The position numbers were made by a program, and so were the translations under genes. A stretch of DNA of 64,000 nucleotides from Microcoleus sp. FACHB-1515 (lineage in GTDB: Bacteria; Cyanobacteriota; Cyanobacteriia; Elainellales; Elainellaceae): assembly GCF_014696105.1 (NCBI RefSeq), contig NZ_JACJPO010000063.1, positions 1 through 64,000 on the forward strand. Reading direction: 5' to 3'. This document shows, one piece after another, positions 25,160 to 43,354 of this stretch; the first letter of the stretch is position 1; each line of letters opens with the position of its first letter. The notes under the pieces were generated by a model. That model was not told where the DNA came from and did no database searches. It saw only the letters and a program-made list of their open reading frames with translations.

Positions 25160-25274
25160 GCGCCTCCACCTGATTCTTGAAGCGCAGCCCTAGTTGTCAA
25201 ATTGCCGCTGCGGGCAGATTCACCACTCGACTACACCGTTTTATTTTGGGATCGATCGCGCTTTTGATGAAATC

Positions 25275-25691
25275 ATGCTGCAAATTACGAATACGGTCAG
25301 CATTCCTGACGATGAGATTGAAATTCGGGCGGTGCGATCGCAAGGCGCAGGCGGGCAAAACGTGAACAAGGTCGCTACGGCAATTCAGTTGCGCTTTGAC
25401 ATTCAGGCCTCATCCCTGCCCGATGTCTACAAGCAGCGGTTGCTCAAGCTTTCAGATCACCGCATCACTCAAGACGGCGTAATTGTCCTCAAGGCACAGG
25501 AACATCGCACCCAGGCGCAAAATCGCCAAGCCGCCCTCGATCGACTGCAAACGCTGATTCAGCGATCGATCGTGCGCCCGAAGCTGCGGCAGGCCAGTCG
25601 GCCCACTCGCACTTCTCAAGTCAAGCGGCTCGATCGCAAAAGCAAACGCGGACAGATCAAGGCGCTGCGCGGCAAAGTGAGCGAAGAATGA
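25275..25691 (+). CDS. arfB: Alternative ribosome-rescue factor ArfB (YaeJ)
   Basis: Starting at ATG 25275 (MLQITNTVSIPDDEIEI), the protein has 138 residues, like E. coli ArfB; an upstream in-frame extension to 25194 lacks homology. The catalytic GGQ motif is in SQGAGGQNVNKVATAI (about residues 23-38). The C-terminal tail is basic (KRLDRKSKRGQIKALRGK), inserting into the empty mRNA channel of stalled ribosomes. It hydrolyses peptidyl-tRNA on non-stop complexes. It sits between the PAS histidine kinase (divergent) and the chemosensory cheA (convergent), unrelated to either. Confidence 0.92.
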   Translation: MLQITNTVSIPDDEIEIRAVRSQGAGGQNVNKVATAIQLRFDIQASSLPDVYKQRLLKLSDHRITQDGVIVLKAQEHRTQAQNRQAALDRLQTLIQRSIVRPKLRQASRPTRTSQVKRLDRKSKRGQIKALRGKVSEE

Positions 25692-25761: not shown

Positions 25762-28700
25762 TTAAAGCGATCGACTCAGAATTTCCCGAATCTCGCCGAG
25801 AAATTCTTGCTCTAGGAACGGCTTGGTGAAGTAGGCGGTTGCGCCGAGCTGTCGGGCGAGCCAGTTGTGTTTGTCGTTGCTGCGCGAAGTGAGCATAACG
25901 ACGGGAATTGTTGCAAGCTGATTGTCTTGGCGGCGATGGCTGAGAAATTCAAAGCCGTTCATGTTCGGCATTTCAATGTCGCAGACGATCAGCTTCACAA
26001 ACGGATTTTTCTGAAGCTGGGCGATCGCTTCTCGTCCATCTCGCGCTTGCAGAACGCGAAAGCCGTTTCGCTCAAGCGATAGGGCGAGCGTGCGCCGCAG
26101 CGTCACGGCATCATCCACAACGAGAATGGTGGGAACCTGTGGCGTAGGAAGGTGAGTTGGTGGCCGTTGCGGAGCTTGGGTCTGCACCTGATTGAAATTG
26201 AGCAGCATCACTGCATCGACGATCGGAACGAGGCTGCCGTCTGCCAAAATCGTGCAGCCATACAGATAGTTCGGTGGCGCGATCGTGCTGCCAAATGGTT
26301 TGATCACCAGTTCTTGCTCGGTGATGAGGCGATCGACTTCGAGGGCGAAAAGCTGCTGATCCTGTCGGAGAATCAGCACGGGCAAAGCCCAATCTGTCGG
26401 AGTCGGAACGCTGACGAAAGCTTTGCTCAGCGGCATTTCTAGCTGTGGGCAGCCATAAGCAAGCAGATCGCCCAGTCGATAGACCGGAAGCATTTGGTCG
26501 TGCCAAGCGAGCAACCGCTCAGCGCCAGACTGTTTCACCTGAGTCGGCTGGGGCGTCAAAATTTCTTCGATGCTGTCAGCCGGAAGCGCCAGCGCAGCAG
26601 AACCAACTAGGCAAACAATCAACTTTGTAATCGTGAGCGTCAGAGGAAGCGCGAGCGTAAACGTGGTGCCCTGACCCGGCACAGAGCGAACCGTTACCGC
26701 GCCCTTCACCGATCGAAGTTGCGAGCGAACAATATCGAGTCCGACGCCACGTCCCGATAGTTCACTGACGCGATCGACAGTGGAAAATCCCGGTTCAAAA
26801 ATAAATTCAAGCAGCTGCTCTGGCTGCATCAGCATCAGTTGTTCGGGTGAAAGCAAGCCGAGTTGCAAAATCCGAACGCGGATGCGATCTAGATTAATTC
26901 CTTGCCCATCATCTCGAATTTCAATAATCGTTTGACTGCCACGATGATAAGCACGAATTTCAATTTGTCCCTGCTCTGATTTACCCTGCTCCAGCCTGCG
27001 ATCGATCGATTCGATGCCGTGATCAAATGCATTTCGCAGCAAATGCAGCAGTGGCGCATGTAGTTTTTCTAAAATTGCTTTTTCAACCAGTACATCTGCC
27101 CCAGTTAGCGTGAGCTGAACTGGCTTTCCGTAGTTGGTTGAAAGGTCGCGCAGCATTCGAGGAAATCGATCGACCACTTCGCTCAACGGCAGCATTCGTG
27201 CCCAAATGATTTCGTCTTGCAACTGGCTGAGGCGATTGCGCTGCTGGTCGAGCAATTGATTCGACTGTCTGGCGAATAAAGTAATGTCATCAATGCTTTC
27301 TTCAAGCTGCACTAGATTTTCTAGAATCTCTTGAAACTGCGGGTGAAGCGCTCCATATCGATCCATTTCTAGCGGATCAAATTCCGCTGTTGTTGCTGAC
27401 GGAATTGCCGGGTAAACGATCGCTGCTGCCTCTGGCATTTTGCTAGTTATCGTTGCAGCATAGCCATAACGCTCTGGAGCAATTAACATCTGATCCGAAA
27501 TTTCTCGCAACTGTCCGACCATTGCTTGAAATCGTTCAAATCGACTCAATAGTTGACGGGAAATTGCCTGTAGCTGATCGTTTTGAAGGGACAACGCATC
27601 GCGATTAATTGCTAGTTCACCGACTAAATTATTCATCTTCTCTAATCGAGACGAATCCACTCGAACGGTAAGATGGCTGGCTGATGCTTGACGCGATCGC
27701 CCCTTTTGCGCTTGACGACTAGAACGCTGAACTGGTTGAAGGGCTGGTAATAATTTATCCTCTTCCAGCAAAGGTAAGGCTGGAGCAACTGATTCAGTCA
27801 AAGAACGATCGACTGATGCTGTTTCGATCGCCTCCGTTACTTCAAGATCAATCAGCGGATGAGAATTAGAAGCAGTTTCAATTTCAGTGACAAAGCTGCT
27901 CTCATCGATTTGAGATGAAACAGCAAAATTTTGAGCTAATTCTGTCTCAGCTTGACTGAATTCTGAAGCCAAATCCAAAGCTGAATCTTCATATTCAATT
28001 TCTGATTCGATCGCTTCAATTTCTGCGTCATCAAATAAGTTTTCTAGCGCGATCGCAGCGGTTAATTCTAATGATCCTGCTGTGAAAGCTTCGATCGATT
28101 CTTCAACCTTTTGTGGTGAGTCATCGACCGACACAGGCTGTTCGATCGCATCTCCAAAAATTTTCTCAAGACCATCAAGCTGTAACAGTGCCGCTTCGAG
28201 ATCTGCACCCTCGACTGCGGTAATAGGCGGATCGTCAATCTCAATCGGTACTGCTTCAATAGCAACCGAAGCAGGTTTTTCACTGGAGCGACGTTTGCTG
28301 AGAACCGCTTGCCGACAAGCTTCAAATTCAACGATCGCTCGCTTCGCAAGTTCTAAAGCATCGGACGAAGTGTCTAAAGCCTGTTCGATCGATTGAGCGA
28401 TCGCGCCAAATTCTGGTAGATTTAACAGCTCAGCAAATCCAGCGAACACTTCAATTTGCGCTCGCAGTTCTCCTGCAATTTCATGATTTTCTGGATTGGC
28501 GACTGCTGCCGCGAGGCGATCGAGTCCTTCAGCAACATCCACCTCAAAAATTGACGCCACCATATCAACGCCCATATCTTCGGAAGTCGGAATATAGGTT
28601 CGCGTTTGCGTCAAGGCATCGCCACAAACCGCCTCAATTTCCTGAAAGACTGGCTCTGCGATCGCGAATGCTTGTTCGACATCAAGATTTCCGGTCGTAA

Positions 28701-29022
28701 TCTGCTCCATCAGCGGCAGACGCAAGCAATCATAAGCCTGAAGCAGATGGCTAACGAGAGCTGAATTAATATCAATGCTATCGCTATAAAGCGCCTTAAA
28801 AATATTCTCCAAACGGTGAGCGATCGCTGCAATTGTTTCTAAGCCAACGCTCGCTGCTCCACCTTTGAGCGAGTGCGCTGACCGCATCAAAACGTGAATT
28901 TGTGCGGTACTGCGCTCGGAATGAAGCGTCAGCAATTCTGCTTCGATCGCCTGTAAAAGCTCAGGCGCTTCTTCCACAAAAAATTGATAGGCTTGGTCGC
29001 GGATGTCAGAATTCATTGCCAT
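25762..29022 (-). CDS. CheA-type hybrid histidine kinase of a Pil/Pix chemosensory system
   Basis: The 1086-residue protein has an N-terminal HPt with RSAHSLKGGAASVGL (phospho-His about 50). A second degenerate helical region and a long acidic linker (about 250-430) follow. A P3 dimerisation domain (about 450-640) precedes the HATPase (LLHLLRNAFDHGIES, DDGQGINLDRI, LSGRGVGLDIVRS), a CheW-like domain (about 830-960) and a C-terminal receiver (ILVVDDAVTLRR, VCDIEMPNMNGFEF, YFTKPF). This is the PilL/PixL-like layout. It is the kinase receiving signals from the MCP (31384-34218) through CheW. It follows the permease gene by 126 bases, the widest gap in the cluster, so a separate promoter is possible. 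Confidence 0.9.
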   Translation of the reverse strand: MAMNSDIRDQAYQFFVEEAPELLQAIEAELLTLHSERSTAQIHVLMRSAHSLKGGAASVGLETIAAIAHRLENIFKALYSDSIDINSALVSHLLQAYDCLRLPLMEQITTGNLDVEQAFAIAEPVFQEIEAVCGDALTQTRTYIPTSEDMGVDMVASIFEVDVAEGLDRLAAAVANPENHEIAGELRAQIEVFAGFAELLNLPEFGAIAQSIEQALDTSSDALELAKRAIVEFEACRQAVLSKRRSSEKPASVAIEAVPIEIDDPPITAVEGADLEAALLQLDGLEKIFGDAIEQPVSVDDSPQKVEESIEAFTAGSLELTAAIALENLFDDAEIEAIESEIEYEDSALDLASEFSQAETELAQNFAVSSQIDESSFVTEIETASNSHPLIDLEVTEAIETASVDRSLTESVAPALPLLEEDKLLPALQPVQRSSRQAQKGRSRQASASHLTVRVDSSRLEKMNNLVGELAINRDALSLQNDQLQAISRQLLSRFERFQAMVGQLREISDQMLIAPERYGYAATITSKMPEAAAIVYPAIPSATTAEFDPLEMDRYGALHPQFQEILENLVQLEESIDDITLFARQSNQLLDQQRNRLSQLQDEIIWARMLPLSEVVDRFPRMLRDLSTNYGKPVQLTLTGADVLVEKAILEKLHAPLLHLLRNAFDHGIESIDRRLEQGKSEQGQIEIRAYHRGSQTIIEIRDDGQGINLDRIRVRILQLGLLSPEQLMLMQPEQLLEFIFEPGFSTVDRVSELSGRGVGLDIVRSQLRSVKGAVTVRSVPGQGTTFTLALPLTLTITKLIVCLVGSAALALPADSIEEILTPQPTQVKQSGAERLLAWHDQMLPVYRLGDLLAYGCPQLEMPLSKAFVSVPTPTDWALPVLILRQDQQLFALEVDRLITEQELVIKPFGSTIAPPNYLYGCTILADGSLVPIVDAVMLLNFNQVQTQAPQRPPTHLPTPQVPTILVVDDAVTLRRTLALSLERNGFRVLQARDGREAIAQLQKNPFVKLIVCDIEMPNMNGFEFLSHRRQDNQLATIPVVMLTSRSNDKHNWLARQLGATAYFTKPFLEQEFLGEIREILSRSL

Positions 29023-29147
29023 CGTTCATCACTCATGCGTTACAGTCGCGATCGAGATTTGCTGCATCAAGAGAATGTCATCGATTTCGAGCGGAGCAGC
29101 GATCGAACTCAAAATACAAACGAAGCGTAGGCTAACTATTCATGACG

Positions 29148-30557
29148 CTAATCGCTGAGTTGTCCTTCGGCTACATCATCACGCTCAATGTTCTTAATGA
29201 TTTGAGCGCGATGACTTAGCGTTGAGAACAGCCAACCTCCAGCCGCAAGGTAGAGCAAGAAGAAATAGGGAAAGATATTGAAGGGGAAGGATGGAACCGG
29301 GTAGAAGCTGCCTGCAACTGGAATTAACATAAAGAATCCAGCCAGAATGGAGATGATTAAATGGTGCGATCGAAGTTCTCCACGCTGCGATAGATAAACG
29401 GGAGCCGCGATCGAAACGAGCAGATAAGCAGTCAAAAATCCATAAGTTGAAATGGTTCCCAAGTAGCCATAAATTTCGGTGGGCGCCATGCCAAATAGCA
29501 GCATTGAACCCGGAATCAAAAATGCCAGCAGCGCACTGATCGAAACCGCAATATGAGGAGTTCGATTGCGTGTATGAGCGACGCCGAGCGGCGTAGGAAA
29601 GAAGCTGTGTCGAGCTAGCGCATAAGCAATTCTGGAGGCCGCATTGATGCTCGCAAGACAGCAGCTAAAGCAGCTAAAAGCAATGCCAACCGTTAAGCCG
29701 ACGCCTAATAGATCCGCTCGAACTAAGTCAGCCAAAACATTGATGGGAGAAGCTGCTTCATTCAAGGGTGTTTCGTTACTGCGAAAGCCCAGTACTTCAG
29801 AGTAGGACAAGAGCATAAAGAAAAGGCCAATTAAGAGTGCGCTCCAAACCAGAGAGCGCGGGATCGATCGCGTTGGCGATTTAGCTTCATCCCCTAAAGT
29901 TGCTGCACTTTCAAAACCAACAAAGCTGAAGATGGCGATTACCATTCCCAAACTGATACCGCCTGGCGTTGTGCCAGCCAGCGTCAACTGCTCAACATCT
30001 GGGCGAAAACCATGATGTCCTAAAATCAAAAACGCCAGCAGCAAAATAAAGCTCATTGCCACAACTTCGATGATGATCATGAGCATCGCCGCAAGTTGAA
30101 TGTCGGTATAGGCGTAGTACCAGGCAAAGCCGACGCAGAGCACACACAATAAGAGCGAAGGAACCTGAAGTCCAAACTCAGTTAGCACAATACCAGCATA
30201 TTCTGCAAAGCCCACTGAAACCGCCGCTGCAACCAGCAGGTAGGCAAGCGTCAGTGCCCAACCGCAAACGATTCCCACTGTTGAACCTAATCCTTTCGCA
30301 ACGTAAAGATAGAGTGCGCCAGCAGAAGCAGAACGACGTGCAAACTGATTGATGTTGAGGCTAACTAGCACAAGTCCGATCGTGGCAAGTGTAAATGCTA
30401 ACCACGCACCGTTACCCGCACTTGCAAACACTAAAGGAATATTCAATGCAATGCCGATCGAAGGTGCAGCCAGTGAAACAGACTGACTCAAAACATCCGC
30501 AAACGACAAACAGTTTGGACGCAAGCTTGCAGATTTTTTTGTAGGATAGGTTGCCAT
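29148..30557 (-). CDS. APC-superfamily amino-acid/amine permease
   Basis: The 469-residue transporter has 12 predicted membrane segments. The N-terminal part (LSFADVLSQSVSLAAPSIGIALNIPLVFASAGNGAW) is the APC signature region, with a Gly-rich unwound helix 1. GFAEYAGIVL and FSFVGFESAATLGDEAKSP (helix 6 region, the FxGFE motif of APC amino-acid permeases) follow. The substrate is not deducible: amino acid, amine or polyamine. The gene lies inside a chemosensory cluster, 56 bases after the stand-alone sensor gene and 126 before cheA, all on the same strand. Confidence 0.85.
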   Translation of the reverse strand: MATYPTKKSASLRPNCLSFADVLSQSVSLAAPSIGIALNIPLVFASAGNGAWLAFTLATIGLVLVSLNINQFARRSASAGALYLYVAKGLGSTVGIVCGWALTLAYLLVAAAVSVGFAEYAGIVLTEFGLQVPSLLLCVLCVGFAWYYAYTDIQLAAMLMIIIEVVAMSFILLLAFLILGHHGFRPDVEQLTLAGTTPGGISLGMVIAIFSFVGFESAATLGDEAKSPTRSIPRSLVWSALLIGLFFMLLSYSEVLGFRSNETPLNEAASPINVLADLVRADLLGVGLTVGIAFSCFSCCLASINAASRIAYALARHSFFPTPLGVAHTRNRTPHIAVSISALLAFLIPGSMLLFGMAPTEIYGYLGTISTYGFLTAYLLVSIAAPVYLSQRGELRSHHLIISILAGFFMLIPVAGSFYPVPSFPFNIFPYFFLLYLAAGGWLFSTLSHRAQIIKNIERDDVAEGQLSD

Positions 30558-30612
30558 GTTTTCCTAATAATGAACGTTCTACAATCACGGCGGCATCCTG
30601 ATTTTGTGGTGT

Positions 30613-31344
30613 TTAACTACCCGTGAAAACCGCTTTTTTATCAAAGGCGGCTGCGGCAATTCTGCCGTATGCAGAAATCCACTTGAACAAATTTGCTGTA
30701 TCGCGCGGAATGCTAACTTTGGCAAACAAGATGATGGCAAACAAATTGCCAGAAGGCAGCATTCCACCAAAACCCAAAATCGATCGAATTCCATAGGGAA
30801 TCACGAAATCTTTTTGTGCAGGGATGTAAGCACTTCCTAATGCTTCAGGAATGTAGAACACGTTGAACGTTGTTCTTTCCAGATCAACCAGCACTTCAGG
30901 AGTTGGTTCCAAAACGGTGCTGATCTCTAGGCCAAACTGTTGAATGAGTTGCGAGATCATCGGGGCGCGATCGATAAAGTCTTTGTCGATCAGCGGAATT
31001 GCTTTGTGACCGCTTGATTCATGCCTGGAGTTCCAGTGTGGTTCGTCGCCTGCGGTTGCCAACAGCGTCAGGCATTTTGTTCCAAGAGGAATCGATCGAC
31101 CGCCGATGAGATCGCGAGCATACTCTTGAAGATCACCATTGAGATCTCGATAGGAATAAGTTCTGAAAAACCGCACCAAAGCGCAAGCAGGTTCACCCGT
31201 TTCTGGGTTAACAAGCTGCTCATAAAGATAGCGAACCATGCGATTTGCGACCTCTTCCATACTCTGGGCGTTGGCATCCATGTTGCGAAGAGCGATCGCG
31301 CAACTTTGCATCTGGCTGTTCGAGAATGACGTTAAATCGTACAT
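30613..31344 (-). CDS. Stand-alone GAF-like cyanobacterial sensor domain protein
   Basis: From ATG 31344 (MYDLTSFSNSQMQSC), with AAGGAA 3-8 bases upstream, the protein has 243 residues; a frame extending to 31371 is unlikely. Features: SMEEVANRMVRYLYEQL, TGEPACALVRFFRTYSY, TLLATAGDEPHWNSRHESSGHKAIPL and GFGGMLPSGNLFAIILFAK. I recognise this domain from the N-termini of cyanobacterial signalling proteins, where it precedes kinase or receiver parts; here nothing follows it. A ligand-binding GAF-like fold is inferred. It sits 39 bases after the MCP gene and 56 before the permease gene. Confidence 0.7.
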   Translation of the reverse strand: MYDLTSFSNSQMQSCAIALRNMDANAQSMEEVANRMVRYLYEQLVNPETGEPACALVRFFRTYSYRDLNGDLQEYARDLIGGRSIPLGTKCLTLLATAGDEPHWNSRHESSGHKAIPLIDKDFIDRAPMISQLIQQFGLEISTVLEPTPEVLVDLERTTFNVFYIPEALGSAYIPAQKDFVIPYGIRSILGFGGMLPSGNLFAIILFAKVSIPRDTANLFKWISAYGRIAAAAFDKKAVFTGS

Positions 31345-31383
31345 GGGTTCCTTGTTCAATTGACACGACACGGTTTGGTCTAA

Positions 31384-34218
31384 CTAGCTCACCTTGAACT
31401 GGTTGACGCTTTTTTGCAGCGTTTGAGCGACCTGTTGAAGCTGCTCAAAGGCCGATGACACCTGACTGGTTTCAGTCGAAGTTTTCTCAGCGATCGCTGC
31501 CACATCTTTCATCGTTTGCGTCACCACCTCAGAAGCTTGAGACTGCATAACGGTGGACTGCGCGATCGCTTCGACCAGCTTGCTAATTTGAGCGCTGACG
31601 GCAGTGATGTTGTTCAAACTTTGGCGAGTTTCATCGACCAGTTTGGTTCCGGTAACAACCTGCTCGATCCCCGCTTCCATGGCGGCCACCACTTCATTCG
31701 TTTCAGACTGAATGCTGGAAATCAAGCTGCGAATTTCCTCGGTTGCCTCGGCAGACTGTCGCGCCAAGCCGCGCACTTCGTTGGCAACAACAGCAAAGCC
31801 TCGGCCTTCTTCACCCGCACGAGACGCTTCGATCGAAGCGTTCAGCGCCAGCATGTTCGTTTGGGCAGCAAAAGCACTAATCAGCTCAACGACCTTCGAG
31901 ATCTTCTGAGAAGATTCGCCGAGGTGTTTCACTTTCTTTGCGGTGTCGGCAACCGTTGCTCGAATGCCCTGAATGCCAACAACGGTGCGGTTCATCGTTT
32001 CGTCACCGACTTCGACCGTTTGGGCGGCTTGCTGAACGGCCATTTCTGCCTCAGCCGCGCTGTGGGCGACGGTTTGCACGGCTTCGGCCATCTCCTGCAC
32101 CAGGCTGAGCGCGATCGAAATTGATTTTGCCTGCTCCAGCGCTTCAGCCGACAGCGTTTGAATCGAAGCTTCGTTGGTGTAAGTCGTTGTTGCGACCTGG
32201 TTGGCCGCATCTTGCACCTGCAACACAATCTGCCGCAGATTATCGACCGTCACGTTGTAGGAGTCCGCGATCGTTCCAATTTCATCCGCCGTCACTTTGG
32301 CGCGAGTCGTCAGGTCGCCTCGGCTAATCGGATCGACTTCCTGAAGCAGCTCTAGCGCTCGCATTTGCAGCCCTTCTTTGATTTGCCGCTGCTCTTCGGC
32401 CAGATTCGTAGTTTGCTCCAGCAGTTCAACCCGATAGATCGTCAAGGCCAGTTCACTGCCGAGCCGCTTGAGCAGGTTGATTTCAACTTCTTCCCACTGG
32501 TGCGGCTTTGAGCAGGAATGTCCAATCAGCAGACCATAGAGGCGATCGCTCCCTACGATCGGCACAACCAGATTCGCCTTGACTTGCAGGCGCTCCATAA
32601 GCTGCATGTAGTCTGGATTCCATTCAGCCTCAGCGCTATCAGGCGTCGCAACCACTCGTCCCTGACGATAGGCTTCCCGCAGTTCGGTGGGAATGCAAGA
32701 ATCCTTCACGCCTTCTTCTAATGCGCTCGGCCAGCCTGCTGCTGCTGATTCGGCCACGATGCCGTGACCTGAATCGCCCTCAAAGCGGTAGATAACGACG
32801 CGATCGAGGTTGAGCAGCGTGCGTGCGCCTTCAACGGCCTGATTAAAAATTTCTTGCAGTTCTGCTCGACCGAGAACTCCCGATCCTTTTGCTGTCGTCA
32901 GCAGGCGTTCCTGTGCGGCTTCAAAGGTTTGGGCAGCCAGCAGCGTTTGAAGCTGCGCGGCCATGTTGTTGATGTTGGTTCCCAAAGCGGAAATTTCGTC
33001 TCGTCCACCAACTTCGAGGCGAGCATCGAGATCGCCTTCTCCAATTTTCTTGACTGCCTCGGCTGCATCCAAAATTGGGTAGGTGGCGCGATCAGCCAAA
33101 TACGTTGCCAGCGCAGAAACGACCATTGCAGTGAGGCCAAGTCCCAAAACGAGCGCTAGCAAAAGCTGACGTTGGGCAGCCGAAGCGATGGCGCTATCTT
33201 CTGCAACCAAAATGCCCCAATCGAGATCGGGTAGCTGCGCCGTTTCTTTCAGCGGTGCGTAGCTCAGCAAATATTCTTCGTTGTCGATCGCGTTTCGGCT
33301 GCGGGTTGCTTCGGCGCGATCGGCCTCAGCAAGCTGCGTAAAAGTCGGAAAGAATTTGTTCAACGGCTGCTCAATTTCTTCGGCATTGGAAGAAACAAAG
33401 ATTTCTCCTTCGTCATCAGCAATGTAGTAGTTGGTCTTTTGATCTTCGCCGACTAACTCAGCACGAGCCTTAATGCTCGCCTGAATTCGATCGCTGATGT
33501 AGCTTGTTGAGGTGCGCGTGCGGATGACATAGAGAAGTTCACCACTTTGGCGATCGAAAACAGGTGCAGCAGCCAGAAATGACAAATCATTGGTGGCTTT
33601 TGAACGGCGCACCGGAGCGATCGCGGGCTGCTTGGTTTGAATGACTGCTTGAAAGTAGTCAATGTCGTTGAAGTTGGGAAAAGTTGCTGCTTGATCGGGC
33701 GATCGCGCCTCCACCAAAGCATCTCCCGTCTTTGCATTGATAACAACAATACTGTTAACGCCCTGCGTGAGAAACTGCTCAAAATATTGCTGCTGCTGCT
33801 GAGTAGAAGTCTCATTCCGCAACTGAGCATCTGTGAGAAACGGAGTTTGCGCTAAAGCTTGAACCGTCTGATATCGTTCTGCCGCAATTCCCGCAACATC
33901 CTGGCTGACGGCGATCGCTCGTGCTTTTTGCTCTCGACGCACGTTGGCTTCGAGGGCACGAATCGCAAAATATTCTGAGGCTCCAGTCACGACTAGCACG
34001 GGAACTACGCCCAGAGCGATCGCCAGGACGGTTGCCTTGCGGCGAATGCTGATACTTTGCCACCAGCGCAGCAGTTTCAGGTGCGGAGCCTGCGAGTGTC
34101 TTGATCCAGAAGAAGCAGGTTGTGCAGGCGAGGAGGCCGTCCAGTTCGACGCATCGCTGATTTCCTCAAATTCAGGATAGACGTTGGAGGCAGTAGGCTT
34201 AGAAGGAACTTGAGTCAT
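31384..34218 (-). CDS. Methyl-accepting chemotaxis protein (PilJ/PixJ-like)
   Basis: This 944-residue membrane receptor begins with a cytosolic N-terminus (1-55) and a TM helix ([25 protein letters not shown]). A large periplasmic double-Cache-like domain (about 90-345) and a second TM (about 350-375) follow. HAMP ([28 protein letters not shown]), a GAF domain (about 430-610), a second HAMP-like region and the signalling tip ([27 protein letters not shown]) complete it. Cache domains sense small ligands such as amino acids. The GAF position equivalent to the bilin-binding Cys of PixJ-type photoreceptors is Asp ([21 protein letters not shown]), so canonical bilin attachment looks absent. The 944-residue length suits PilJ/PixJ. 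Confidence 0.92.
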
Positions 34219-34374
34219 GAGTTGAACTCCGTCATCAACAGTAATAGATTGCTGCTCGGAAAAAGCTGAATGGGGAAATAGCGGGTCAGTTTTCGATTTT
34301 CGATCGCGGTTTAATCTGATGAGAAAAATTGCAATCTTTCCCTGTTAAAAAATCAATGAGCGTGATGGAAACAA

Positions 34375-34929
34375 TTAGGCTGGCATGGCTGCAATCACCG
34401 CTGCTCCATCCAGAACGGCCAAAGCTTCACCGTTTGGTTTGCACCAGTAGCCTTGAATTAATGAAGCCAGTTTGCTTGTCACAGCCGTGAAAGGCTGAAT
34501 TTGATTAGGATCGCACCATTCAATTTCTTCAATTTTGCTAACGACTAGCCCCAGCGTTTTTGGTTTTGCATCTTCAGCCATTTGCAAAACAGCAACCGAA
34601 TGAATTGACGTATGCGATTGTTGATACCAGGGAGTCAAACCGCCTAAGTGTCCAACATCGAGCATCCAAAGAATTTCGCCGCGCCAGTTGTAAATACCCA
34701 TCACCCAACTGGGCAAATGGGGAATTGGCACGATTTGATGCGTTTCGATCGTCAAAACTTCTGCAAGCTGATGAACAGGCAGCAGCACGGTTGTTCCTGC
34801 CACAAGCTGTAGTCGCAAAAACTGTTCACTGCTGCCTGATTCTTCGATCGCAACTTCAATAGGTGCGGAGGTTGAATCAATAACGGAGACATCAGACATG
34901 AAGATATCGGACACGGATACATCAGCCAT
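34375..34929 (-). CDS. CheW-like adaptor (PilI/PixI)
   Basis: The 184-residue protein has a CheW domain in residues 30-175. It contains FLRLQLVAGTTVLLPVHQLAEVLTI, the PIPHLPSWVMGIYNWRGEILWMLD region (the VxGxxNxRGxxxxxxD CheW signature) and LGLVVSKIEEIEWC. CheW couples the receptor to the CheA kinase. The first 25 residues (MADVSVSDIFMSDVSVIDS) are an unconserved extension. It sits 13 bases downstream of the CheY gene and 157 before the MCP gene. Confidence 0.9.
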   Translation of the reverse strand: MADVSVSDIFMSDVSVIDSTSAPIEVAIEESGSSEQFLRLQLVAGTTVLLPVHQLAEVLTIETHQIVPIPHLPSWVMGIYNWRGEILWMLDVGHLGGLTPWYQQSHTSIHSVAVLQMAEDAKPKTLGLVVSKIEEIEWCDPNQIQPFTAVTSKLASLIQGYWCKPNGEALAVLDGAAVIAAMPA

Positions 34930-34941
34930 AGTTGCTTCAAA

Positions 34942-35307
34942 CTAATTTTGAATGAGCTGTTTCACAGTGCGAACAAATTGTTCTTGATCGATCGGCTTTG
35001 GCAAATAGGCATCTGCGCCTTGCTTCATGCCCCAAAATTTATCCATCTCGCCTCCCTTGGTCGAACAAATCACAACTGGAATGTTGCTAGTGTCGGCTTC
35101 AGCCTTCAGCTTGCGGCAAACTTCAAATCCACTACAGCCCGGAAGGACAACATCCAAAACAACTGCATCTGGCTTTTGAGTTGTAGCAGTGGCGATCGCT
35201 TCTTCACCGCTTTGGGCAACCAAAACGTTCAGGCCACCCTGCTGCAAACAGTGAATTAAAATCTGCATATCGGTCATTGAATCTTCAACTACTAGCACGG
35301 TGCTCAT
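34942..35307 (-). CDS. CheY-like response regulator (PilH/PixH)
   Basis: Starting at ATG 35307 (MSTVLVVEDSMTDMQIL) with the ribosome-binding site AGGAGG 7 bases upstream, the protein has 121 residues; a GTG 21 bases upstream lies inside the ribosome-binding region and is rejected. It has one receiver domain: DAVVLDVVLPGCSGFEVC (phospho-Asp about 54), ICSTKGG and AYLPKPID. It is the diffusible output regulator; with the kinase CheA it forms the phosphorelay. It lies 32 bases downstream of the PatA-like gene and 12 before the CheW gene. Confidence 0.92.
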   Translation of the reverse strand: MSTVLVVEDSMTDMQILIHCLQQGGLNVLVAQSGEEAIATATTQKPDAVVLDVVLPGCSGFEVCRKLKAEADTSNIPVVICSTKGGEMDKFWGMKQGADAYLPKPIDQEQFVRTVKQLIQN

Positions 35308-35339
35308 GTCATTTCCTCCTAGAAACACAAATCAAACTA

Positions 35340-36668
35340 TCAGACAAACTCGGTTTTGAGATACTTCTGAATCACGTTGAGAACAGCTTCAGCATCTAAA
35401 GGTTTTGTCAAAAAGTCAGACGCTCCTACAAAATTCGATCGCAGTCGATTGGCGTAGCCATCATTCCCCGTCAAGATGACAATTGGCGTTTGGTGAAACT
35501 GTGAAAGCTTCCGAAGCTGCTGACAAATTTCATACCCGTTGGCGTTTGGCATCACCAAATCCAAAAAGATCAAATCGGGTTTTTGAGCAATCAAAATGCC
35601 GATCGATCGCAGCGGATCGCTGATGCCCGTGAACTCATAGCCCGCAGAAGTTAGCAGCCCTTTCATCATGTTTTGCACCAAACTACTGTCATCAACGCAG
35701 GCAATCTTTGCTGCTTTTTTTTGAATCGATATGGATGGAGCTTCTAGGACATCTTGACGAAACAGCGGAACAGGAAAGTCAACCACCTGAATGAGTTCGA
35801 CCCAACCCAACTGCACACAGGGCAGCAGCGAAGCCGCAACTTCAACGACATCTCGCTGCATCTGTGTTGCTAACTCATAAAGTGTGTGCTGACCGTTCAG
35901 GCGACTGCTCAAGCTTTGATAGAGCTTTGGCAGATGATTCCTCATCGGTTCTGCCTGCCGAATCAGCGGTGCTGTATGAGGAGAACAGCGATCGAGCTTG
36001 GCGGTTTGCCACGACTGCCAGCGCAATTGCGCTTCTTCGATCGCATCCGCAATACTGACAGAAACAGCTTCGGTGTCACCCAAAAATGCTGCTAGAGCAG
36101 GTAGCTTTGACTCTGGCTGAGTCTGTTCGGTGACAGTCCCAACTTGGGCGACATCGAACAAAATCTCGACCGCGATCGAGTGAATTAATTTCGCGGTTTG
36201 CTCATCTGTAATTTTTTGTTTTGCTCTCCATAAATTCAACAGCGCATACTCCCAGCCCATTCCAAATGATTCAGCCGCAAGATTGCCCAAATCGAAATAC
36301 CAAAGCATTCGATGCCTTGCCATTTGCGGACAGTAGAGTGCTACGTTTCTTCGCCATCTTCTAACAGGATGCTCACCTCCTGTTGCATAGTAGATTCGTC
36401 CCTGTGATAGATAGAAGCTCCATTGCGATCCGGCTGAAGATGCTTGAAGGAGTTGCCCGCTAAATCGAACTGCTTCTAGCGTTTTGAGCAATTGACTTGA
36501 TTTCAAATCAGAAAATCCTCGCACAGGAAATAACGCGATCGACTCAGAGCGATCGCAGCAACGAATTCGATGCACCAATACAAATGGTTCAGGTAGATCA
36601 CGAAGCAGAACAGCTTGCAAACGATCGCGATTCGATGAACCTTTGATTGCGATCGCAGCGATGCACAT
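35340..36668 (-). CDS. PatA/PixG-like response regulator with PATAN domain
   Basis: The 442-residue protein has an N-terminal DUF4388/PATAN-type region (about 40-240) and a C-terminal receiver domain at about 310-440 (KIACVDDSSLVQNMMKG, LIFLDLVMPNANGYEIC, VILTGND, DFLTKPLD). This is the architecture of PatA, PilG and PixG, which adjust pilus activity or heterocyst pattern downstream of the kinase. The ATG at 36668 (MCIAAIAIKGSSNRDRL) is the farthest upstream start. It is first gene of the chemosensory cluster, so the main promoter should lie in 36669-37012. Confidence 0.88.
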   Translation of the reverse strand: MCIAAIAIKGSSNRDRLQAVLLRDLPEPFVLVHRIRCCDRSESIALFPVRGFSDLKSSQLLKTLEAVRFSGQLLQASSAGSQWSFYLSQGRIYYATGGEHPVRRWRRNVALYCPQMARHRMLWYFDLGNLAAESFGMGWEYALLNLWRAKQKITDEQTAKLIHSIAVEILFDVAQVGTVTEQTQPESKLPALAAFLGDTEAVSVSIADAIEEAQLRWQSWQTAKLDRCSPHTAPLIRQAEPMRNHLPKLYQSLSSRLNGQHTLYELATQMQRDVVEVAASLLPCVQLGWVELIQVVDFPVPLFRQDVLEAPSISIQKKAAKIACVDDSSLVQNMMKGLLTSAGYEFTGISDPLRSIGILIAQKPDLIFLDLVMPNANGYEICQQLRKLSQFHQTPIVILTGNDGYANRLRSNFVGASDFLTKPLDAEAVLNVIQKYLKTEFV

Positions 36669-37012: not shown

Positions 37013-37627
37013 TTGTACGAATGTGCCTCAACTCGATCGCGGTGCAGCGATTCCCAAGAGCTATCGCGTGCTGCCTTTGACAATGCCCACTTCAGCATTG
37101 TTCATGCGGCATCTTTTGGTGTGGAAGAGCAGCCTCAGCCCGCCCAGTCTGACCTTGTGCCCCTGGAGTTGGGAAAGGTTTACGCGACAGTGCCTGTAGG
37201 GAATCCACCTAGCCAGCAGCAGAACCTCAACATTCCAGATAGCCTGACGGTGCGATAGGTGGAATCGACCTGGTACGCCCCCTTTTGCTGCACGCTCAAA
37301 ATCATCTATCCCAACGGGCTGATGCATTTGATTTTCACCGCCGCGACTCCGGTGAGCGATCGCACGTCGCAAATCATCCAGTTCTGCATTCGCAACGACA
37401 CCGAAGCAGACGCCAGCACCGAGTCAATTATTGCCTTCGATCGCCAAGTGGTGAATGAAGACAAAGTGGTGCTGGCGTCTACCGACTGCGACACGCCCCT
37501 GGATATCACTGCCGAGCAACACATGCCCTCAGATCAGCCAGGAATTATCATGCATCGCCAGTTAGCAGCCCTGATTAAAATTCAGGCGAAGTCGCAGGAA
37601 GAGGCTTGTTGCGCTGCCGAAGTGTAA
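37013..37627 (+). pseudogene. Decayed Rieske-type aromatic-ring-hydroxylating oxygenase, C-terminal part
   Basis: The frame from about 37013 reads AFDNAHFSIVHAASFG, PLELGKVYATVPVGN and NIPDSLTVR, then TAG at 37256-37258. It continues in the same frame VESTWYAPFCCTLKI, IYPNGLMHLIFTAATPV, IIQFCIRNDTEADA, IIAFDRQVVNEDKVVLAS and SDQPGIIMHRQLAAL. This is the catalytic-domain end of a Rieske oxygenase alpha subunit (DNAHFSIVHAASFG carries metal-ligand His residues). The N-terminal Rieske CxH/CxxH half is absent and one in-frame stop interrupts the gene, so it is a pseudogene. It ends in TAA at 37625-37627, directly before a second decayed gene. Confidence 0.7.
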
Positions 37628-37639
37628 GGGGCGATCGCT

Positions 37640-38498
37640 TTCCACCGCTGTCACCGTCAACCTCGAATCCTTGTATGCAAACTCTCATCGTTTCATGACC
37701 CCGATCGAGGAATTTACGTCGGGCTGGGAGCTACCGGATTTCACCGCTGCACGGATGCGCTGCTCCAAGGCTGTGCCCAACTGAGCGATCGCCACCAGCT
37801 TTGCTACCCACCTGCTTGAAACCCGCACTCAGCACCGTCTAGCTCAAGAACGCTACAGCATCAGTGCCGTCCAGCATCTTCACAATCTGGGCTGCTTGAG
37901 TCCGCGCACTTCTCTGGCTCACAGCGTCTGGATAGACGATGCAGACATTGCGCTGATCGCCACCACTGGGGCAACTTTGATACTCAATCCGGTGAGCAAT
38001 CTGCGTTTGGGCAGCGGTTTAGCTCTTATTCTTAAGTGTCTGAAAGCAAGGCTGAATGTGTTCTTTGGCTGCGACGGGGCAGCGAGTAACGATGCTCAAA
38101 ATCTGCTCGAAGCGATTAAGCTGGGCACGATTTTACATACGGTTTCTGATGGCGACTACGAAAACTGGATTACGCCTGAACGGGCGATCGAAATGGCAAC
38201 AGTCGGAGGAGCAAAGGGCGTGAATTTGAGCGATCGCACTGGCACGATCGCGGCTGGAATGGAAGCCGACCTGGTACTCTATAACCTCAACCATCCCTCG
38301 ATGCTGCCCCGCACAAATCCGCTGCAACTGTTGGTGCTGGGACGACCGACTGAAGTAGTTGAATCGGTGTGGATTCGGGGACAGCAAATTGCCGATCGAG
38401 GGCGAGTGCTGACGGTGGACACGGACGCTCTACATCAAGCGTTGAGACAGCATTCCTTAGATTTAGAACGTGCAAAGTTTCAGCATCGATTCGGTTGA
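37640..38498 (+). pseudogene. Decayed amidohydrolase (cytosine/guanine/chlorohydrolase-like deaminase)
   Basis: Three frames are needed to read it. Frame one gives TVNLESLYANSHRF up to about 37698. After a one-base loss, HDPDRGIYVGLGATGFHRCTD and LLQGCAQLSDRHQL follow to about 37800. After a second shift FATHLLETRTQHRLAQERY continues to the end (SLAHSVWIDDADIALIATT, LNPVSNLRLGSG, FFGCDGAASNDAQNLLEAIKLGT, GTIAAGMEADLVLYNLNHPS). The THLLET, LAHSVW and GCDGAASND motifs are those of metal-dependent amidohydrolases. The N-terminal metal-binding HxH region is gone. The last part, from about 37896, reads 200 residues without a stop, but without its N-terminus it is inactive. Confidence 0.75.
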
Positions 38499-38773: not shown

Positions 38774-41700
38774 TCAGGCGAAGAAGGTTTCAATGTTGAG
38801 GCTTCCGGCAGCGATCGACTCCATGCCCGTAATATGAACGACCAGATCGTGGCGAGGTGAAAAATTTGCGCCTGAAGCCGTTCTGGAACGGAGACTACTA
38901 TCATTGACAGCTAGGAAAGTTCGGCCTCTCCAAGTTAGAAATGCCGCTTCGTTGGCTCTGAGTGGTTGCTTGCCACGTCGTCGCTGATTCTTGTCTGCAA
39001 AAGCGGATTGAATCGCATCCCGCAGGCTACGAGTTCGTTGACGACCTGCATTGAATAAGCCGCTCGGTCGCTCGATCGAAGCCCAATTGCCGTCAAAATC
39101 AAGCTGGATGCGATCGCCCTCAGTCACATTGAAGTCCGTGATGCGATCGCGATTAATCACTGTAGAGTCACGTACTCTTGCCACGCCTCCCGTACTGTAG
39201 ATAAAACGGTCTGCGCCAGTACCACCGCTCAAGGTGTCTCTGCCTGCGCTACCCACAAGGCGATCGTCTCCCCCATTGCCCAGCAGAACATCATTGCCCG
39301 CCATTCCCAGCAGAATATCCGCCTCATGACTGCCCTCAAGTGTGTCCGCTTGACTAGTTCCCCTTTGCATTTGTGGAAGTCGCGAAACAGGCGGGTGGTT
39401 GCTTAGATCAGGGCTGCCGCTGATGCTGAAGTTGCGATCGCCCAGATCGCTGCCAGTCGCGCTATCGCTGGTGCTACCATTGCCGGAACTGCCTGTGCTG
39501 CCACCTGGAGCGAAGTTATTATCGGCGATCGCGATTGCAAACACATCGCTGGCCGTTGCACCCGCGCTGTCCGTCGCGATGACCTTGACGCTGAGATGAC
39601 TTGCACTTGCTTGGGGTGGTGTGCCGTTGAAGGTGCGTGTGTCCGCATCAAAGCTTAACCATTGCGGCAACGCATTGCCATTTACGAGCGTGGCGCGGTA
39701 GCTGAGGCGATCGTTTGCATCGTTATCCGCAAAGGTATCCGCCGCGATCGTGAAGCGGAAAGCGGTTGCTTCAGTAGCGGTCTGGTCGGCGATCGCTTGT
39801 CTGAGGAGTGGAGTTTGATTAGGGCGAATCGCGATCGCTGCACTGCCGCCAATGCCTTGGGTGGCAAAGACAAACATATCGATGCGGCCATTGGTGTCGC
39901 CGCCCACTAAATTGCTGGCCGTTGAGTAGAACACCACCGACTGCCCATCGGGAGCGATCATCGGTGCGTAAGAATCCCCGTTGCCTTGTGTTCCGTTGTC
40001 TGAGAGGCGAGTGAGGACTTCAGTTTGGCGATCGTATCTGAAAATATCGGTGCGATTGTTCGTGTCGCCCTCGACTAAGTTGCTGGCATCCGAGGCAAAC
40101 GTGATGTAGCGTCCGTCGGCTGAAATCACCGGATCAAAAGAATTGGCATTGCCAAAATTTCCGGCTGCACTGGTCGAAACACCCGTTGTTTCTCCGGTTT
40201 GGCGATCGTGCACAAAAATATCAACTCGGCTGTTCGTATCGCCGACTGCCAAGTTGCTCGCTTCCGACTCAAACACCACATAGCGGCCATCCGCAGAGAG
40301 CATCGGATCAAGCGAGTCACGATTGCCGAACACCCCTTGGAAACTACGCGAAACCGCGCTGGTTTGCCCTGTGACGCGATCGAAGACAAACACATCATAG
40401 TGATTGTTTGTATCGCCGCTCACGAAGCTGTTGGTATTGGAGTGGAAGGCGACATAGCGACCATTACCGGAAATGTGGGGAAACCGAGACAGGCCATACC
40501 CTTGCTTGCCATTGGAATCGATCGAGACGCGAGTGGTTTGACGAGTTTCGCGATCGAAGACAAATACGTCGCGCTCAAAATTCGTATCGCCGCTTACCAA
40601 GTTGGACGCGAATGAGGAGTAAGCCACATAGCGGCCATCCGCCGAGATGGTTGTGCCATAAGAACCGCCATTGCCCTGAATGCCATTGGAGTCGATCGAA
40701 ATGCGTGTGGTTTCTCCCGTTTGGCGATCGTGTACAAACGCATCGGCAACCTGATTGGTGTCGTTCTCAACGAGATTGTCGGCCTCCGACCAAAACGCGA
40801 CATAGCGACCATCGGCTGAGATCGAAGGACTGTCAGAAAGCCTGTTGCTCTGGGTGCCATCGGAGGCGATCGAAACGCGAGTCGTCTGGAACGTTTCGCG
40901 GTCGAACACAAAAATATCGCGCTGATGATTGGTATCGCCAACGACTAGATCATTCGCGCTCGAAGCGTAGGTGACAAAGCGGCCATCGGCTGACAGTCCG
41001 GGTGTCGTTAATTCAGCGGTTGGATACCAATCACCCCTCGTTTGATTGCCACTGGGGTCAACTGAAATGCGGCTGACAAAATTGCCGTCTGAAACTGTGA
41101 AGTCAAAGCGATCGATTGACGCATCTGTGTGATTGAAATACGTAAGGTTGCCGCTGTTAATATCCGTTTGAGTAAAAGTGTCGTTGATTCCCAAGAGTCG
41201 ATTATTGAGTCGCAATACACCACTGGCAGGCAAGCTAGTGAGTGTGTAAGTCAGTTGCTCAGGATCGCTGTCGGGATCACGCACCTGTAACATTTCACTC
41301 GTAATTCTTACGGCTCTACCTGTTTGCGCCAAGATGCTAACATTCGCCAAGGCGGGTGCGTCATTCACGCCGCTGATGTTGATGCTGCGGATGGCGAGCG
41401 AGCTATCCATCACCCCATCATTGACTTGAAATCGAATAGTTTGAACCGCAGTCGGACTGTCGTTGCTGCTGGCGTAAGTAATCGATCGCAGTGCCACTTG
41501 ATAAGCACTGAGAGCAGCCAAACCTGTGAGCGTTAAAACTCCGGTTGTCTCGTCAAAACGCCCCGTAATTCCGTTTTGATCGGTAAAGTTGAGCTGTTCT
41601 TGACTGGAATAGTTTTCGATCGCAACAGTCGCACTGATCAGGCTATTACTATCTCCAGAAGTGATGCGAAGTCCGCTGTCAATGATGATAGCGGCTGCGT

Positions 41701-43354
41701 TCTCGGTATAGGAAAGTGGCGTACTCGAAGCAAGAATGGTTGCGCCATCGCGAACAGGTTGAATGGCGATCGATGCGCTACCAAAAATTGCACCCGCATC
41801 ATAAACAAACGTGTCCAGTGATTCATTGGTATCTCCACTTACCAAATCACTTGACCAGGAGCCAAAAGCAATGTAACGACCATCCGCAGAAATGGTCGGG
41901 CTAGGCTCAGTAATCGGAGAAGTGCCAATATCCGTACTTTGAGTGCCCGTTGCAGTGACAGAAACGAGAGTGGTGCTTCCTGTGAGGCGATCGTGAACAT
42001 ACACGCCACCGCCGCCGCTTCTATCGTTGCCCACTAAGTTGCGAGCGGATGAGATGAAAGTAACATAGCGACCATCGGCTGAAATGCCAGGATTGGTCGA
42101 GTTACTATCTCCCGGTGTGCCATCCGAGGCGATCGAAACCCGTGAAGTTTCTCCGGTTTGGCGATCGTGAACAAAGATATCAGAGGAACCCCAAATCCGA
42201 TCACCAGGCACAAGATTACTTGAATCCGACTCAAACGCAACGTAGCGACCATCGGCTGAAATTACAGACCTTAGCTCGGTAAATGAAAAAAACGCTGGCC
42301 GATTTCTTTGGCTGCCATCGGAGGCGATCGAAACGCGAGTAGTTTGTTTCGTTTGACGATCGTGAACAAACAAATCTGCAAGGCTGTTGGTGTCACCTTC
42401 AACCAGGTTGGTCGCAGATGAAGTAAACGCGATATAACGACCATCGGCAGAAATTGAAGCTCCAAAAGAGCTGTTGTTGGCTTGAATTCCATTTGTAGCG
42501 ATCGAAACGCGCTCAGTTAATCCAGTGAGGCGATCGTAAACAAAAATGTCAGAAGAATTGTTGGTGTCGTCGCTCACAAAATTATTGGATGCGGATGAAA
42601 ACACGACATAGCGACCATCCGCAGAAATGGCCGGATCGTCTGACCAGCTATTTCCTTGAACTCTACCTGCACCCGCTGAAACACGAGTGGTTTCTTTGGT
42701 TTGGCGATCGTGAACAAACACATCAATGCTTTGATTGGTATCACCACTCACCAAGTTGCTGGCAAATGATTCAAAGGCAATATAGCGACCATCGGCAGAA
42801 ATAGAAGCGCGATAAGAGTTGTCATTGGTCTGAATTCCACCTGTGGCGATCGAAACCCGCTCGGTTTTTTCCGTTTCGCGATCGTGAACAAACAAATCTC
42901 GCCGATTGTTGGTATCACCCTCTACTAGATTGCTGGCAAGCGCATCGAACAACACATACCGACCATTTGCAGAAATTTGGGTGAGATAGTGGATATATGG
43001 GCTGCGCTCACTTTGGGAACCGTCGCTGGCAACCGAAACACGAGTCATCAGACCAGGGCTATCAGACACGACAAAGCTGAATTGGTCACTGATCGTATCG
43101 CTGCTGTTGTGCCAATAGGTGAGGCGACCATTGTTAATATCAGCTTGTGTGAAGGTGCTGCCAACTGCGATCGCATTGCCGTTGAACTTCAGCAAGCCTT
43201 CGTTCGGCAGGGCTGAGATTCGGTAAACAATTTGGGCAGAATTACTGTCATCACTCACCTGCAACATGGCGCTTGTAATGACGACTTCTTCGCCTTCATT
43301 AACAAAAATTTCAGCACTGGTTGTCAAACGAGGACGATCGTTCAAGCTGCTCAT
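38774..43354 (-). CDS. Giant RTX protein with two cadherin-like plus seven-bladed PD40 propeller modules
   Basis: The protein has 1526 residues. It is a duplicated module: a CSPG/cadherin-like repeat (about 10-100, FTQADINNGRLTYWHN; second about 665-745, FTQTDINSGNLTYFNH) leads into seven blades of ISADGRYVAF-x-SxASNLVxGDTN-xxxDIFVHDRQTGETTRVS type (about 104-515 and 745-1150). A VNDGVMDSSLAIRSINISGVND cadherin-like stretch lies between. After a He_PIG/dystroglycan-type domain (about 1165-1255) come RTX calcium nonapeptides (DTLEGSHEADILLGMAGND, GNGGDDRLVG) at about 1335-1395 and a C-terminal tail typical of type I secretion. It has no N-terminal signal peptide, consistent with that route. 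Probably a secreted or surface-attached adhesin; no ligand is deducible. Confidence 0.85.
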   Translation of the reverse strand: MSSLNDRPRLTTSAEIFVNEGEEVVITSAMLQVSDDSNSAQIVYRISALPNEGLLKFNGNAIAVGSTFTQADINNGRLTYWHNSSDTISDQFSFVVSDSPGLMTRVSVASDGSQSERSPYIHYLTQISANGRYVLFDALASNLVEGDTNNRRDLFVHDRETEKTERVSIATGGIQTNDNSYRASISADGRYIAFESFASNLVSGDTNQSIDVFVHDRQTKETTRVSAGAGRVQGNSWSDDPAISADGRYVVFSSASNNFVSDDTNNSSDIFVYDRLTGLTERVSIATNGIQANNSSFGASISADGRYIAFTSSATNLVEGDTNSLADLFVHDRQTKQTTRVSIASDGSQRNRPAFFSFTELRSVISADGRYVAFESDSSNLVPGDRIWGSSDIFVHDRQTGETSRVSIASDGTPGDSNSTNPGISADGRYVTFISSARNLVGNDRSGGGGVYVHDRLTGSTTLVSVTATGTQSTDIGTSPITEPSPTISADGRYIAFGSWSSDLVSGDTNESLDTFVYDAGAIFGSASIAIQPVRDGATILASSTPLSYTENAAAIIIDSGLRITSGDSNSLISATVAIENYSSQEQLNFTDQNGITGRFDETTGVLTLTGLAALSAYQVALRSITYASSNDSPTAVQTIRFQVNDGVMDSSLAIRSINISGVNDAPALANVSILAQTGRAVRITSEMLQVRDPDSDPEQLTYTLTSLPASGVLRLNNRLLGINDTFTQTDINSGNLTYFNHTDASIDRFDFTVSDGNFVSRISVDPSGNQTRGDWYPTAELTTPGLSADGRFVTYASSANDLVVGDTNHQRDIFVFDRETFQTTRVSIASDGTQSNRLSDSPSISADGRYVAFWSEADNLVENDTNQVADAFVHDRQTGETTRISIDSNGIQGNGGSYGTTISADGRYVAYSSFASNLVSGDTNFERDVFVFDRETRQTTRVSIDSNGKQGYGLSRFPHISGNGRYVAFHSNTNSFVSGDTNNHYDVFVFDRVTGQTSAVSRSFQGVFGNRDSLDPMLSADGRYVVFESEASNLAVGDTNSRVDIFVHDRQTGETTGVSTSAAGNFGNANSFDPVISADGRYITFASDASNLVEGDTNNRTDIFRYDRQTEVLTRLSDNGTQGNGDSYAPMIAPDGQSVVFYSTASNLVGGDTNGRIDMFVFATQGIGGSAAIAIRPNQTPLLRQAIADQTATEATAFRFTIAADTFADNDANDRLSYRATLVNGNALPQWLSFDADTRTFNGTPPQASASHLSVKVIATDSAGATASDVFAIAIADNNFAPGGSTGSSGNGSTSDSATGSDLGDRNFSISGSPDLSNHPPVSRLPQMQRGTSQADTLEGSHEADILLGMAGNDVLLGNGGDDRLVGSAGRDTLSGGTGADRFIYSTGGVARVRDSTVINRDRITDFNVTEGDRIQLDFDGNWASIERPSGLFNAGRQRTRSLRDAIQSAFADKNQRRRGKQPLRANEAAFLTWRGRTFLAVNDSSLRSRTASGANFSPRHDLVVHITGMESIAAGSLNIETFFA

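Follow-up and report, generated by a model that had tools for sequence, protein, structure and literature searches.

The stretch of DNA analysed here, called the window below, comprises 64,000 nucleotides (positions 1 to 64,000 of contig NZ_JACJPO010000063.1, Microcoleus sp. FACHB-1515). It contains a set of seven chemosensory and accessory genes, all on the minus strand. In operon order these encode a PatA-like (PATAN) response regulator (35340..36668; PF14332 DUF4388 and PF00072 receiver), CheY (34942..35328; PF00072 receiver, E 2e-24, 78-81% identity with the CheY of sister operons), CheW (34375..34929; PF01584, E 7.6e-21), an MCP with the domain matches dCache_1-HAMP-GAF-HAMP-MCPsignal (31384..34218), a stand-alone protein of 243 aa with a predicted GAF fold, placed by family alignment in an unnamed cyanobacterial family (30613..31344), an APC-superfamily permease of 469 aa (29148..30557; PF13520, E 3.1e-33), and a hybrid CheA with matches to Hpt, dimerisation, HATPase, CheW and receiver domains (25762..29022). 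The gene set, strand, coordinates and families given in an earlier note on this DNA were all confirmed. The intergenic gaps, from the PatA-like gene to CheA, are 11, 12, 156, 39, 55 and 125 bases. The sensor gene should start at ATG 31344 and not at GTG 31371, as indicated by a conserved MYDL start in the family alignment. Homologues of the PatA-like protein align only from about residue 35-60 onward, so its true start probably lies downstream of 36668, the annotated one being too far upstream.

A convergent release-factor-like gene (25194-25691) lies close to the end of CheA at 25762. At the other end of the operon, the PatA-like gene is preceded only by gene remnants, which lie on the opposite strand. 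Pieces of a vanillate-demethylase-type oxygenase C-terminus (PF19112) and of an amidohydrolase (PF01979) lie at 37259-38498 on the plus strand; both are truncated at the N-terminus and have the look of genes in decay. A minus-strand gene at 38774-43354 encodes a 1526-aa repeat protein with cadherin-like, PD40 propeller, Ig-like and RTX calcium-binding repeats. A scan of the operon for promoters and terminators gave matches at chance level, and co-transcription is therefore deduced from spacing only. The Rfam scan was empty.

The genes for the PATAN regulator, CheY, CheW, MCP and CheA are clustered on one strand, as in tax-type operons. PATAN regulators are present in all three tax operons of Synechocystis, where the signals of tax2 and tax3 are not known (PMC5812497). 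The operon is of the tax/pix type and, by analogy with the published homologues (PMC5812497), would steer type IV pilus motility through the PATAN-CheY regulator. Pix phototaxis systems carry an MCP with a bilin-binding Cys-His GAF domain; inspection of the sequence of the MCP GAF domain (residues 453-594; 32437..32862) revealed no Cys-His pair. A role as bilin photosensor was rejected for this domain and for the stand-alone protein alike, as no Cys-His site was seen in either. The genome (G000; 5.79 Mb, 96 contigs) encodes four MCPs, each on a separate contig and in its own cluster with CheW/CheA-type genes, and this operon is thus one of four pathways of this Leptolyngbyaceae cyanobacterium. 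Another of the chemosensory clusters of this genome (C32:283543-291236) combines three CheW-type domains, an MCP and CheB within 8 kb.

Other genomes were surveyed for the gene order on which the earlier note had built its proposal. MCP-GAF-APC-CheA was found in 6 of 36 genomes of the order (G000, G005, G007, G008, G016, G019). The observation of the earlier note, which would have fallen had no other genome kept the two genes in this place, therefore stands. Five genomes of the order have MCP-GAF-CheA without the permease (G011, G012, G013, G014, G023), and six have MCP-APC-CheA without the GAF gene, three of them in the order (G001, G002, G006) and three in another family (G165, G279, G114). 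Absences are less certain in G006 and G008 (incomplete drafts), G001 (contig ending inside CheA) and G019 (frameshifts). About 14 orthologous operons in the order have neither gene, as does the majority of operons of this type. Since the full arrangement recurs in five further genomes, with operon proteins ~50-65% identical in four of them, and parts of it recur in eleven more, it is judged not to be due to chance. On a tree of the che backbone the presence of each accessory gene needs three changes, which may be gains or losses. The earlier note had taken an MCP next to CheA as the normal state; this is indeed common, but runs of two or three consecutive MCPs are also seen, and the neighbour of CheA in many operons from other families is a second or third MCP. 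In the sister operons of G009 and G017 an NMT1-type solute-binding protein gene (L116 2572-3642; L121 9262-10305) is located between CheW and MCP instead. The best-supported description is that the gap between MCP and CheA is an accessory slot, filled in this lineage by a soluble GAF-fold sensor and an APC permease.

The 243-aa protein matched no Pfam family, no NCBIfam family and no PDB sequence. The Pfam GAF profile matched neither the window protein nor any of 12 relatives, and a 12-sequence profile of the family matched no PDB chain. The AlphaFold2 model (pLDDT 85.8, pTM 0.86) retrieved GAF domains of cyanobacteriochromes and phytochromes in Foldseek with probability 1.00 and a best E-value of 1.3e-4, with TM scores by target of 0.50-0.65 against single GAF domains. 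The "GAF-like" label of the earlier note is thereby borne out by predicted structure only, and the predicted fold is that of a GAF domain. Members of the family were found in 22 of the 36 genomes of the order and in 60 of 390 of the class. The approximately 60 loci inspected fall into three contexts: within this che operon (11 genomes), immediately before a PAS-HisKA histidine kinase gene (~20 loci), and alone. Reading of the open frames assigned fusions with a histidine kinase (L096 9605-11428; L100 8583-10328) and with a PP2C/SpoIIE-type phosphatase (L094 9614-11311), and in Nostocales (L014-L017) the GAF-fold protein carries a C-terminal tail of pentapeptide repeats. A coiled coil after the sensor part is common to the proteins fused to kinase or phosphatase and to the free kinases. 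These contexts support the view of the family as a portable cyanobacterial input module.

The family tree splits, with 100% SH-aLRT, into a clade of kinase-linked copies and one that unites the solitary, che-linked and pentapeptide forms; the window protein belongs to the latter. The earlier proposal that the sensor feeds the kinase is therefore upheld only in part: the family does stand next to, or fused to, kinases, but the che-linked copies sit in the clade without kinase partners. Outside the operon, the nearest relatives of the protein are solitary genes that have no neighbour in common, as would be expected if it did something unrelated, or served a different partner in trans, and had simply been carried along by the operon. 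This is improbable, given that the gene holds the same place on the same strand in all 11 che operons that have it and was kept across deep divergence, in a GAF-only clade and in two GAF+APC groups. Moreover, close orthologues of the linked PAS-HisKA kinase are found only in genomes having a kinase-linked GAF copy, and G000 has none. A shared in-trans kinase was rejected for this reason, and CheA/MCP are the only co-encoded signalling partner seen for the GAF protein. The plasmids searched contained no relative of it. An action of the GAF protein on this CheA/MCP may thus be inferred from place, conservation and family history.

The extracellular dCache_1 domain of the MCP (residues 87-337; 33208..33960) was modelled with pLDDT 75, and its predicted fold is closest to the amino-acid receptor domains and TlpA (PctA, Mlp37, TlpA). 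In an alignment with PctA, a profile match (E 3e-6) whose register is likely but not certain, D173 is replaced by Arg, W128 by Tyr and Y144 by a non-aromatic residue. D173 of PctA is strict in both the amino-acid and the amine dCache motifs (PMC11245519). The suggestion that the MCP has a Cache domain of the amino-acid- or amine-binding kind was consequently rejected: the fold resembles that of PctA, but the motif residues are replaced. Between sister operons the Cache domain is 26% identical and the signalling part of the MCP 77-79%, with 65-77% for the stand-alone GAF protein and 59-65% for the permease. In three of three operon comparisons the GAF protein was conserved at least as well as the permease, the MCP and the whole CheA. 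Probably the outside ligand changed while the inside parts stayed. Because the Cache domain has diverged so much further than the GAF protein and the permease, a single ligand common to Cache and permease appears unlikely.

The permease belongs to AA_permease_2, with a PF13520/PF00324 match that passes the cut-off over its full length, and is an ordinary protein without an extra domain. Among solved structures it is closest to GkApcT, a bacterial CAT homologue (6f34, 5oqt; 2e-12 to 6f34), and to CAT transporters. The closest APC paralogues in the order (56-58% identity) adjoin a gene for a haem-dependent oxidative N-demethylase; others adjoin glutamine-synthetase-like enzymes, a copper amine oxidase and a PLP decarboxylase. 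At L138 6194-10622 and L135 78-3869, close APC paralogues flank the N-demethylase gene (PF11927) on either side, hinting at methylated amines as candidate substrates. The substrate class named in the earlier note, amino acids or small amines, thus agrees with what these paralogue neighbourhoods point to, without the substrate being fixed by them. The permeases of the operons form two separate, well-supported clades, and a single clade was rejected (AU p = 4.5e-11; p = 0.0025 with the first set of rows). An APC permease therefore took up the position upstream of cheA at least twice, or else a distant paralogue took over from the resident one; in both cases selection for a permease at the slot is implied. 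Together with the conserved place of both genes in other genomes, this recruitment bears out the view that sensor and permease belong to the operon. A strict link between MCP type and permease was rejected, since an MCP with Cache and GAF domains is found in all APC operons but also without APC; the association is suggestive only.

A serious rival, though one that is tentative at best, is that the permease, and perhaps the GAF protein, is co-expressed with the taxis genes while neither touches the signalling complex, the cells that move to a nutrient simply importing it as well. The ordinary, full-length permease speaks for this, and so do the six operons with APC and no GAF gene and the very different rates at which Cache and APC evolve. 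Co-regulation of this kind does not readily account for the sensor fold of the small protein and the record of its family as an input to kinases, nor for the fact that APC was inserted in front of cheA on two occasions and not at the end of the operon.

GAF folds are able to bind small molecules, and in 6 of the 7 operons with type-1 APC the GAF gene is present too. The permease might import the very ligand that is bound by the GAF protein and signalled by it to CheA. Such a relay, which the earlier note had put forward as a possibility, is possible but less favoured, since each of the two genes also occurs without the other: five operons have the GAF gene without APC and six APC without the GAF gene, among them five operons of type 2. 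The GAF family is also present in genomes without a close APC homologue. A fixed transfer of ligand from permease to sensor is thus unlikely. A further, improbable reading is that the permease is itself an array receptor, its transport cycle being read by the GAF protein and/or the MCP and passed to CheA, in a multi-protein chemotactic transceptor reporting amine/amino-acid flux.

The best explanation as a whole, to which a probability of about 0.5 is given, is a tax-type pathway with an accessory slot, in which a cytosolic GAF input and a permease are under common control. The GAF protein would sense a cytosolic small molecule and bias the MCP-CheA complex from the cytosolic side; the signal read by the Cache domain would be a different one, from outside. 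The permease, under the same control, would import an amino acid or small amine, so that the cell may move towards, import and internally monitor nitrogenous solutes. GAF protein and permease would be modules working in parallel, with no obligatory relay between them. The slot survey, the two APC clades, the links of the GAF family to kinases, the lack of a close orthologue of the linked kinase in G000, the PATAN regulators of the Synechocystis tax operons, the conservation of the GAF protein, the neighbours of the APC paralogues and the NMT1-type variants of the slot count in favour of this explanation. The clustering of the che-linked GAF proteins with solitary copies, the large share of operons without accessories and the chance level of the promoter and terminator scans count against it.

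That related bacteria kept the extra genes in place, and that APC entered at least twice, suggests that uptake and movement are controlled together. The slot repeatedly takes in nutrient permeases, solute-binding proteins, additional receptors or a soluble GAF sensor, which suggests that nitrogenous nutrients are involved and that the cell measures internally as well as externally. The contents of the slot thereby give a pointer to the signals of the cyanobacterial non-light taxis operons (tax2, tax3 and their relatives). The GAF input module is shared by histidine kinases, a PP2C phosphatase and one chemotaxis operon, so that knowledge of its ligand would explain many systems in one step.

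A literature search in which few subscription journals were covered turned up no permease described within an operon of this kind, and no account of the accessory arrangement, the repeated recruitment of APC or the unnamed GAF module. The chemosensory core is an ordinary one, already known from tax operons (PMC5812497): the order of PATAN regulator, CheY, CheW, MCP and hybrid CheA is the same as in the tax1-tax3 (tax/pix/hmp-type) operons of Synechocystis, whereas here two non-chemotaxis genes stand between MCP and CheA. In contrast to PixJ, the MCP combines a dCache and a GAF domain with no visible bilin site. Its predicted Cache fold is like that of the dCache_1AA/dCache_1AM receptors PctA and PctD, but differs at PctA D173, W128 and Y144. 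The stand-alone protein shares its predicted fold with the GAF domains of phytochromes and cyanobacteriochromes, at 6-13% identity and with neither a Pfam GAF match nor a visible Cys-His bilin motif. The permease has PF13520 in common with GkApcT and the CAT permeases but is encoded inside a chemosensory operon. The idea of a coupling between uptake and kinase is shared with SBP-linked sensors and with the CbrA (SLC5-STAC kinase) transceptor (PMC11113362; PMC7096432). Unlike in CbrA, the transporter is not fused to the kinase but encoded by a separate open reading frame (29148-30557 and 25762-29022, respectively), belongs to another permease family, and is accompanied by a soluble CheA.
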